Source: Actinoplanes auranticolor
Lineage (GTDB): Bacteria; Actinomycetota; Actinomycetes; Mycobacteriales; Micromonosporaceae
Assembly (NCBI RefSeq): GCF_018332655.1
Contig: NZ_BOQL01000044.1
Span: 62,001-126,000, forward strand
DNA length: 64,000 nucleotides
Reading direction: 5' to 3'
Shown: positions 9,741 through 32,399 of the stretch, piece after piece
Layout: each line of letters opens with the position of its first letter
How positions within the stretch are numbered: position 1 is the first letter of the stretch
Position numbers and translations under genes: made by a program
Notes under the pieces: model-generated
What the model was told of the DNA's origin: nothing
Database searches by the model: none
Seen by the model: only the letters and a program-made list of their open reading frames with translations

Positions 9741-11240
<1,500 letters not shown>

Positions 11241-30579: not shown

Positions 30580-30839
30580 CACCCATCCATTCGACAGCCC
30601 CGGACGGCGGCGGTCGCCGCGCCCATCTGCACAGTGGCGGAGCGGGCCCGCAAGGTTGCCGCGTTCGGCCAACTTTCTTCAGCGAACGGATGCATTGACA
30701 CGTCGCGATCGGTCGGCGACGCTGGGCGCGCACCCCACCGGGCCGGTGGCGGGCGGGAGCCGTGGGCAGCTTTCGCCGTACCCCTGCAAGACCCATGCCC
30801 TTTCCCCGGGCCCCTTTTGTCACGGAGTGCTGAGCCCTC

Positions 30840-31916
30840 ATGTCCTCTTCGCTACGAATCCGCATCCTGATCAGCGGTCTCGTCGGGATCGTCGTGGCCA
30901 CCCTGGCCGCGGTCGTCCTCCCGGCCGGGCCCGCCGCCGCGCACGGCAACGTCACCGGGCCGGCATCGCGCAACTACGGCTGTTACGAACGCTGGGGCAG
31001 CAAGTTCCAGGACCCGGCGATGGCCACCGCCGACCCGATGTGCTGGCAGGCCTGGCAGGCCGACCCGAACACCATGTGGAACTGGAACGGCCTCTTCCGC
31101 GAGGGCGTCGCCGGCAACCACCAGGCCGCCATCCCCGACGGCCAGCTGTGCAGCGGCGGGCGCACCCAGGGCGGCCGCTACAACTCGCTGGACGCCGTGG
31201 GCAACTGGACACCCGCGCCGGTCGGCAACACCTTCAACGTCCGGCTGTTCGACGGGGCCAGCCACGGTGCCGACTACATCCGGGTGTACGTCACCAAGCC
31301 CGGCTTCGACCCGGTCACTACGGCACTGAAGTGGTCCGACCTGGAGCTGGTGAGCCAGATCGGCGACACGCCCGCCGCACGGTGGGACGCGGTCACCGGT
31401 GGCGTGCAGATCGACCTGCCGGTGGCGCTGTCCGGGCGCACCGGGCGGGCCATGGTCTACACCATCTGGCAGGCCAGTCACGCGGACCAGTCCTACTACT
31501 TCTGCAGTGACGTGGCCTTCGGCGGCACGAGCACGCCGCCGGTGACCACCCCGCCGGTCACCCCGCCGGTCAGCACCTCGCCCACGGCGTCGCCCACCAC
31601 CCCGGCCCCGCCGGCGACCGGCGCCTGCTCGGCCACCTACGCCGTGAGCTCGTCGTGGCAGGGCGGTTACCAGGGTGAGGTCAAGGTGACCGCCGGCTCG
31701 GCGGCCGTCAAGGGCTGGACGGTCTCGCTGGCCTATCCCGGTAGCCAGACGATCCAGCAGGGCTGGAATGCCACCGTCGCGGCCAGCGGCAGCACGGTGA
31801 CGGCGACCAATGCCGGTTACAACGGCGCATTGGCGGCGGGCGCGAGTACGACGTTCGGATTCATCGCCTCGGGGGCGAGCGCCGTCCCTGTGGCGACGTG
31901 TAACGCCACAGTCTGA
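30840..31916 (+). CDS. Secreted AA10 lytic polysaccharide monooxygenase with CBM2
   Basis: Copper-dependent oxidative enzyme that cuts crystalline cellulose or chitin. Of 358 residues the first 34 form a signal peptide ending PAAA; cleavage exposes His35 (HGNVTGPASRNYGC), the N-terminal half of the copper histidine brace. The second copper histidine is probably His142 in ASHGADY. YTIWQASHADQSYYFCSDV is characteristic of cellulose-active AA10 enzymes. A PPVT-rich linker leads to a C-terminal CBM2 (CSATYAVSSSWQGG to CNATV). The gap upstream (30580-30839) shows no clear operator. The enzyme complements the hydrolases of the xylan locus. Confidence 0.93.
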   Translation: MSSSLRIRILISGLVGIVVATLAAVVLPAGPAAAHGNVTGPASRNYGCYERWGSKFQDPAMATADPMCWQAWQADPNTMWNWNGLFREGVAGNHQAAIPDGQLCSGGRTQGGRYNSLDAVGNWTPAPVGNTFNVRLFDGASHGADYIRVYVTKPGFDPVTTALKWSDLELVSQIGDTPAARWDAVTGGVQIDLPVALSGRTGRAMVYTIWQASHADQSYYFCSDVAFGGTSTPPVTTPPVTPPVSTSPTASPTTPAPPATGACSATYAVSSSWQGGYQGEVKVTAGSAAVKGWTVSLAYPGSQTIQQGWNATVAASGSTVTATNAGYNGALAAGASTTFGFIASGASAVPVATCNATV

Positions 31917-31967
31917 GCAATTCCTTAAGCGTCTTCCACCCGGCCCGAAGGACAGTTACAGTCATGG

Positions 31968-31983
31968 TTGGGAGCGCTCCCAA
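31968..31983. promoter_or_regulatory. Orphan CebR-type operator
   Basis: TTGGGAGCGCTCCCAA, a perfect 16-nt palindrome whose 14-base core is identical to the site at 11183. It lies 52 bases after the LPMO stop codon and no gene starts within 400 bases downstream on the + strand. Confidence 0.85.
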
Positions 31984-32076
31984 CCACCATCCTCCCGTCC
32001 CCCTGGAGGTGACCCGGCAAGACCATTCACCGGCCCGGCTCCCGCACTGAACATGAACCGTCCGAAAGCGAAATGG

Positions 32077-32111
32077 ACGGGGGATGAGGCGCCCTCCTCA
32101 TCCCCCGTTTC
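32077..32111 (+). terminator. Strong intrinsic terminator
   Basis: ACGGGGGATGAGG (32077-32089) pairs perfectly with 32096-32108 (13 bp, 6-nt loop) and is followed by TTT. It is about 95 bases downstream of the orphan CebR box. Confidence 0.85.
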
Positions 32112-32120
32112 GCGTTGCCG

Positions 32121-32140
32121 CACCAGGGATTTCCCTGGTG
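32121..32140. repeat. Short perfect hairpin
   Basis: CACCAGGGA (32121-32129) pairs with 32132-32140 with a 2-nt loop, ten bases after the preceding terminator. Confidence 0.7.
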
Positions 32141-32141
32141 C

Positions 32142-32205
32142 CGGGCACGCACGACGAAGGCCCGCACCGGCGTTCCCGCCGTCGTGGGCCTTCGTGCGTG
32201 CCGGG
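32142..32205. repeat. Long bulged hairpin
   Basis: The left arm from 32142 (GGCACGCACGA...AGGCCC) pairs with 32186-32205, with a 3-nt bulge in the left arm and a loop of about 20 nt. It may be a second terminator. Confidence 0.6.
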
Positions 32206-32363
32206 GTTCGAATGACGGATCCGCCCGCCCGAGGCCGGCCGTGACCGAATATGGACCGGCCGATATCCGCGCGGCGATACCGTCGTTGTCCGGCCTTATT
32301 GTGCGGTGCCGAGAAGATCTGTCGTCGGCCACTGCTGTCGATGAATGCGGCGACTCAGCGGGC

Positions 32364-32399
32364 AGTGCCCGGCCTCCCGCGATCGGGAGGCCGGGCACT
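32364..32399 (-). terminator. Terminator after the pectate lyase gene
   Basis: A perfect 16-bp stem (AGTGCCCGGCCTCCCG at 32364-32379 with 32384-32399) and a CGAT loop, directly downstream of the pectate lyase stop on the reverse strand. Confidence 0.85.

Follow-up and report, generated by a model that had tools for sequence, protein, structure and literature searches.

What kind of element sets a perfect operator for a cellulose repressor, a ribosome-site-like motif and a hairpin side by side, with no gene between them? The stretch in question lies in the window, the whole 64 kb of DNA analysed here, which is part of the 9.88-Mb genome (G000) of Actinoplanes auranticolor, a member of the Actinoplanes group. 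The first-pass annotation left a choice between the scar of a deleted cellulase gene and a small RNA (sRNA) controlled by the cellulose repressor. Comparison with relatives supports the second reading: positions 31968-32112 of the forward strand very probably hold a conserved CebR-controlled sRNA, predicted to be about 140 nt long, with its 5′ end placed to ±2 nt and its 3′ end at the hairpin. We can also propose a likely target for it, the mRNA of the gene immediately upstream.

That gene (30840-31916, forward strand) encodes an AA10 LPMO with a C-terminal CBM2 (Pfam PF03067, E 1.1e-46; PF00553, E 5.1e-24) and has a Shine-Dalgarno sequence, GGAG, at 30824-30827. Fifty-two bases past its stop codon begins the perfect CebR-type palindrome of the first annotation, TGGGAGCGCTCCCA at 31969-31982, a CebR/CelR operator at the presumed start point of the sRNA. 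A likely −35 box, TTCCAC (31934-31939), and a likely −10 box, TACAGT (31957-31962), were read by eye on the same strand with a 17-nt spacer; a promoter so inferred would start transcription at about 31968-31970 and leaves the operator 6 nt past the −10-like box. Many relatives share a TACAGT/TACATT-like box. In the predicted RNA the operator doubles as a 5′ hairpin; the annotated ribosome-site-like sequence is indeed present, as the conserved GGAGG of the sRNA core (32005-32009, within GGAGGTGA at 32005-32012), and is followed by no start codon. The presumed terminator hairpin, with loop CGCCCT, occupies 32077-32108 (stem 32077-32089/32096-32108). Its 13-bp stem is as annotated; the tail is just GTTTC, a weak U-tract. 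A consensus promoter and terminator scan, which looks for U-tracts, lists neither this hairpin nor the sRNA promoter; both were read by eye, and both are conserved. The hairpin probably ends the LPMO mRNA as well as the sRNA. Downstream lies a convergent pectate lyase gene, and between it and the sRNA a long GC-rich inverted repeat can be seen by eye (32144-32202), perhaps a two-way terminator.

Two open frames cross the interval, one of 144 aa on the forward strand (31810-32244), whose start lies inside the LPMO gene, and one of 123 aa on the reverse strand (32027-32398); no start codon is usably spaced after GGAGG. A small peptide translated from this motif was considered and rejected: a start codon 4-14 nt past GGAG occurs in 1 of 42 elements, and single-base indels distinguish the close relatives L025 and L028. 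Both hairpins appear in the fold of the strand, which 7 of 200 shuffles equal (z −2.07), and in the terminator-like hairpin 7 of the 12 modelled pairs keep pairing through changes on both sides. A known RNA family was also rejected, since Rfam release 15 returned sub-threshold matches and no family above its gathering score; a search of the LPMO loci gave just tmRNA, downstream of two of them. The locus is thus a conserved intergenic unit with a terminator-like hairpin and without a coding frame, as an sRNA locus should be.

Within the genus, a DNA search of 67 genomes, the window's own included, found matches in 18, with most of the region covered in four and the nearest match in G035. Four other genomes matched in the hairpin only, yet in each a perfect box stands before the hairpin at a distance of about 90 nt, and at the two of these loci that were read an LPMO gene precedes the box. 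R1, a covariance model built on eight sequences, matches 43 of the 67 genomes; among 33 R1 loci fetched, an LPMO lies directly upstream, nearly full length, in 29, parts of one in L040 and L045, and none in L060 and L039. Viewed from the LPMO gene, a perfect box follows the stop codon at all 30 of the best genus LPMO loci, own included, at a distance of 32-83 nt in 28 and of 273 and 383 nt in two; the GGAGG core is also present in 29 of the 30, the exception being L148, where it is lost. Across 80 named LPMO loci (35 of the Actinoplanes-group set and 45 others), 33 have the box no more than 220 nt past the stop codon, and L075 and L080 have it at a greater distance. A perfect operator is therefore found at 35 of 35 Actinoplanes-group loci (34 plus one from a MAG labelled Streptosporangiaceae) versus 0 of 45 loci of other genera. 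These come mainly from Micromonospora, Asanoa and Catellatospora, and the sequence of three of them (L105, L114 and L129) runs out no more than about 120 nt past the stop. The contig of the MAG (L085) carries an LPMO gene with the sRNA behind it, and reflects either gene transfer or mis-binning.

A wider model, R2, trained on 34 sequences, scores the window's element at 88.9 bits, and R1 scores it at 122 bits, the window being in both training sets. At E ≤ 1e-6, R2 matches 54 of the 57 genus genomes with this LPMO (E < 1e-100) and 3 of the 10 without (Fisher p 1.4e-5, on counts read by hand and with many of these sequences also used to train R2). The genomes with an LPMO and no such match are G012, G049 and G062, of which G049 (locus L148) keeps the box and hairpin and has lost the core; those with a match and no LPMO are G024, G052 and G061, the last two of which keep broken or partial LPMO sequence. 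At L088, L095 and L100, as at L148, the box is kept and the middle core is gone, and L100 has lost the hairpin too. These four natural losses could serve as test cases.

A GGAGG without a gene is what one might expect of a deleted cellulase gene, or of the leader of a gene further downstream. The relatives compared at the same locus, however, hold the same short operator-GGAGG-hairpin unit with no gene between operator and hairpin, and they carry the operator, the opposite of the operator-less interval that the first-pass annotation had named as evidence against its proposal. The core is conserved, the hairpin keeps its pairs and the flanking LPMO gene is intact, none of which suits a scar, and a usable start codon is as rare as noted above. 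A leader or attenuator of a downstream gene was rejected because the downstream genes differ (convergent pectate lyase here, others in L016 and L025). We give scar and leader together next to no chance.

Is the operator itself more than a chance occurrence? The window holds two perfect CebR boxes; the other, at 11183-11196, stands before a minus-strand ORF (9741-11237) that by reading resembles a GH10 xylanase. With up to 2 mismatches allowed, two boxes were also reached in 12 of 100 window shuffles (mean 0.63), so that a CebR box by itself is not striking in 64 kb; it is because the unit is conserved among relatives that we regard it as more than chance. The genome as a whole has 22 perfect copies, against none of a reversed control. 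A regulon scan covered 18 proteins at 17 of these sites, all other than the sRNA's own, and a cellulase-type, LPMO or CBM2 gene is found at 12 of the 17. Ten of the 18 proteins match GH5, GH6, GH12, GH30 or AA10; two join a CBM2 to a lipase-like or rhamnogalacturonan-lyase domain; one is Cip1-like; and the remaining five are a dehydrogenase, a subtilase, an RHS protein, a BNR protein and one without a match. The sRNA box thus belongs to a genome-wide set found mostly at cellulose genes. Among 45 LacI-type matches in the genome, C25 lies directly beside a GH1 gene, and C31 and C48 lie about 6-7 kb from GH1 genes. TGGGAGCGCTCCCA is the same 14-mer as the Streptomyces CebR consensus box (PMC5332605, PMC4898821), and the kinds of gene found in the CebR/CelR regulon of actinobacteria such as Streptomyces and Thermobifida recur at the boxes of this genome. 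In that regulon the box lies upstream of enzyme genes, among them the LPMO gene celS2 of S. scabies with a CebR box at −177 (PMC5332605); here it lies behind an LPMO gene and drives a presumed non-coding RNA.

The RNA has a second genomic setting. At E ≤ 0.01, R2 matches 268 of 354 family genomes, not all of them real. When 43 loci outside the LPMO setting were read, 37 looked true, and 33 of these have a divergent GH48-CBM2 gene on one side and a GH1 gene on the other (groups g4, g11, g21, g34 and g36); one is with GH1 alone (g19), and three are divergent from GH48 (two in g25, and one in G024 of the window's own genus). Homologues in Micromonospora and other genera therefore adjoin GH48 genes, GH1 genes or both, and their operator is TGGGAGCGCTTCCA or the perfect box. 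Their core, GGAGGUGGAACCAGAGCCACUCGCGUGGCCCGGCUCCC, is almost invariant in g4 and its neighbours, and G232 of g4 agrees by eye with the Micromonospora lutea record L136. The other six of the 43 (L209, L211, L217 and L229-L231) were judged by eye to be false, being gene promoters or other hairpins. In a sample of the class, 51 of 394 genomes gave R2 matches, those outside the family reaching at most 31.9 bits; the six read there were likewise rejected by eye, as they look like gene promoters. Many Micromonospora-type loci (L187, L188, L207, L208, L212-L216, L219, L221 and L232-L245) carry an extra 5′ hairpin upstream of the core, like GGCUGACGGCGG..CCGCCGUCAGCC, with a loop, GCCAGCCCGGAC, that is near-invariant by eye; in the same loci the box appears about 100-130 nt upstream of the model match. 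On contig C120 of G024 there are two sRNA copies (L039 and L228) 5 kb apart, one of them divergent from GH48, and the best LPMO match of this genome is no better than E 4.5e-87.

With 33 of the 37 true-looking loci at GH48-GH1 and with a CebR-like operator, the RNA is not merely the 3′ UTR of the LPMO gene. The same fact bears on the idea of a roadblock or 3′-end device, by which CebR bound behind the LPMO gene would stop or trim LPMO transcripts and the hairpin would merely terminate. This idea would account for the operator lying so regularly within 32-83 nt of the stop, and for the window showing, by eye, no hairpin between LPMO stop and operator. It does not account for an RNA that recurs away from this LPMO gene, at GH48 or GH1, in other genera, nor for the conservation both of the region upstream of the operator and of the core between operator and hairpin, and we consider it highly improbable.

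If the element is an sRNA, what would it act on? In none of the 80 named LPMO loci do the 500 nt before the LPMO match contain an operator, even with 1 mismatch allowed; the likely role of the sRNA is therefore to bring the LPMO under cellobiose control through RNA. In the window a likely −35 box of the LPMO promoter, TTGACA, stands at 30695-30700 (TTGAC occurs likewise in the LPMO leaders of several relatives). Near the presumed 5′ end of the LPMO leader lies CCGGGCCGGTG (30738-30748), a perfect 11-nt complement of the presumed sRNA pairing region CACCGGCCCGG (32028-32038); both are read on the forward strand. This match alone is unremarkable, because the core is GC-rich: 15 of 638 200-nt stretches of the window also reach 11 nt. 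The case for pairing has to come from comparison.

Across 42 non-redundant loci, the longest perfect complement between sRNA and own leader averages 8.50 nt (range 6 to 11), nearly equal to the 8.25 nt found with other leaders of the same clade, and exceeds the 7.01 nt found with leaders of other clades and the 6.61 nt with shuffled leaders; the clades were assigned by hand from sRNA motifs, and the p-values of this test ignore phylogeny. The 42 derive from 69 inputs by way of 62 pairs, seven inputs having been dropped, by our reading three without an operator (L096, L098 and L099) and four without GGAG after it (L088, L095, L100 and L148). Relative to the projected start, 38 of the 42 have their longest complement between −79 and −129. 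The pairs of segments are CCGCGTGGC with GCCACGCGG (perfect at 10 loci), CCGCGTGAC with GTCACGCGG, CCGCGCG with CGCGCGG, ACCGGCGG with CCGCCGGT (5 loci) and, in the window, CACCGGCCCGG with CCGGGCCGGTG. The matching letters change between clades yet stay complementary, which in the Actinoplanes group, with phylogeny uncorrected, amounts to compensating changes. Anchor seeds, 22 of 64 of which come from outside the LPMO-adjacent set, match their own leader perfectly in 16 of 64 cases, against 124 of 3458 with leaders of other-seed genomes and 0.4% with shuffled leaders.

When 6300 block pairs were scanned on separate alignments of the two RNAs, without any pairing information, the proposed block came out as the best paired of all (sRNA GCGTGAC with leader GCCACGC; weighted pairing 0.76, mean 0.31, sd 0.09). 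The best eight by pairing include a second block that is colinear with it, and two that are unrelated. Ranked by covariation alone, the best eight blocks are all others (0.087-0.096, against 0.062 for the proposed block), with a pairing of 0.41-0.54. Free duplex energies were excluded as evidence, being inflated by large loops. Taken together, these comparisons make it probable that the sRNA pairs with the LPMO leader.

Could the matching segments instead be DNA sites for one transcription factor, present in opposite orientation at the two places, with no contact between RNAs? The leader site lies near the presumed promoter, and in Paractinoplanes it is itself an inverted repeat (ACACCCGCCGGTGT). 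Against this, the orientation is opposite throughout, the sRNA site is some 60 nt into the transcript, and in one clade two or three blocks (CCGCGU, GGCUCCG and CAGUGCUG) face CAGCACUG, CGGAGCC and ACGCGG in antiparallel order, the third block, CAGUGCUG with CAGCACUG, lengthening the duplex. We judge a shared DNA site to be quite unlikely.

A more serious contender keeps the CebR-controlled sRNA and gives it other mRNAs or a protein as its main targets, the LPMO complementarity arising incidentally from shared ancestry and a GC-rich sequence. Of 36 genomes searched, nine (seven from the small-genome group g4) have the sRNA and no match to this LPMO at E ≤ 1e-60; the sRNA locus was read in seven of the nine and scored in two. 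Other targets must therefore exist there. The leader of another operator gene, L177, matches the sRNA core over 10 nt, and the 11-nt stretches elsewhere in the window point the same way. Pairing is also weak in Micromonospora: with the other genera included, 34 of 45 leaders match over at least 8 nt (21.9% of shuffles do), often by another segment, and the two-block pattern occurs in 19 of the 45, so that complementarity there is weaker and mixed. On the other side stand the excess of cognate complementarity over other-clade leaders and shuffles, the rank of the proposed block in the separate-alignment scan, and the fact that LPMO gene and sRNA co-occur and adjoin. We regard main targets elsewhere as rather unlikely, though they have a better claim than a DNA site or a roadblock.

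The leader contains a further conserved feature, a hairpin at 30752-30777 (stem GGCGGGAGC/GCTTTCGCC, loop CGTGGGCA). A hairpin with a loop ..GGGCA and a stem that changes on both sides is present in many family LPMO leaders (L063-L142, L246-L270), with or without an sRNA next door; the loop is GGGCAG in Actinoplanes and GGGCAA or GGGCAC in Micromonospora. It has no Rfam match and may be an RNA element of its own. Pairing of the C-rich sRNA terminator loop with this GGGCA loop was considered, and candidates can be found in some Micromonospora (GUUGCCCUC with GAGGGCAAC) and in Paractinoplanes (CUGCCCUC with GAGGGCAG). It is not consistent and serves as a lead at most: the G308 sRNA has CUGCCC where its leader has GGGCAA, and by eye clades 1-3 match mainly at GGGC/GCCC.

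The mechanism that we favour somewhat over its alternatives is that the CebR-controlled sRNA pairs with the LPMO mRNA leader and so couples the LPMO to cellobiose. The sRNA, which would code for nothing, would be transcribed from its own promoter just behind the AA10 LPMO gene; with the operator at its start point, it would be made only once cello-oligosaccharides release the repressor. Cellobiose would thus release CebR, and the sRNA would be made along with the cellulases. Its core, GGAGG ... CGCGUG/CACCGG ... GGCUCC, would pair antiparallel with the front of the LPMO leader, standing in for direct repression, so that LPMO output would track cellobiose through RNA. We infer from sequence the transcription of the sRNA, the binding of CebR, the pairing in the cell and the sign of the effect.

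As to that sign, a positive effect, in which a duplex near the 5′ end would expose the ribosome site or make the mRNA more stable, would make sense because an enzyme that attacks cellulose should rise with the products of its substrate. Given pairing, we lean towards activation, and go no further because opening of the ribosome site was gained clearly in just 5 of 35 modelled leaders (a gain of at least 0.15); with the 5′ segment blocked, the mean unpaired fraction over these 35 loci rose from 0.23 to 0.27, the other seven of the 42 loci, without a recognised start or site, being excluded. In clade 2 the sRNA resembles the gene's own ribosome-site strand (GGAGUGCUG), with which the 5′ part of the leader can pair, and the 5′ part of one clade, CAGCACU, complements its own ribosome-site strand AGUGCUG as well as CAGUGCUG of the sRNA. 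A riboregulator common to the whole of the Micromonosporaceae, in which a CebR-released RNA, its core a mimic of the ribosome-site strand, binds the 5′ end of the LPMO mRNA and thereby frees the ribosome site, is an attractive generalisation, though we think it doubtful.

Base-pairing small RNAs under carbon-source regulators are well known, Spot 42, SgrS and ChiX among them. The Actinoplanes sRNA resembles these as a short RNA with its own predicted promoter and terminator, a carbon-source regulator and a presumed target in the 5′ region of an mRNA, and differs in being encoded directly behind that presumed target, a cellulose LPMO, and in belonging to the Actinobacteria, which have no known Hfq. 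Activation by pairing at the 5′ end of a leader, or far upstream in it, occurs with other sRNAs, such as FasX acting on ska and DsrA and RprA acting on rpoS; the pairing site proposed here, some 80-130 nt before the projected start codon, is comparable, whereas activation is here presumed and the modelled opening of the ribosome site small. LhrA of Listeria is said to control a chitinase (PMC3078929), and is thus alike, by description alone, as a small RNA over a polysaccharide-degrading enzyme in a different bacterium and setting. No report of such an RNA was found in the literature searched, which lay mostly outside subscription journals, nor is one mentioned in passages of PMC3377646 and PMC7682106. 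Judged by its sequence, the element is a new family of a known kind of RNA, the regulated base-pairing sRNA, and its arrangement is unusual, with the operator on an sRNA directly behind the target gene and none at the target.

LPMOs are key enzymes for breaking crystalline cellulose, and to our knowledge few small RNAs in actinobacteria have known targets. Because the presumed target adjoins its regulator and the clades differ by compensating changes, the proposal can be tested by simple mutations in harmless bacteria of the soil, and the hairpin of the LPMO leader provides a second conserved RNA element for study. If the proposal is true, the synthesis of one LPMO would be tuned by a small RNA and not by a repressor at its promoter.
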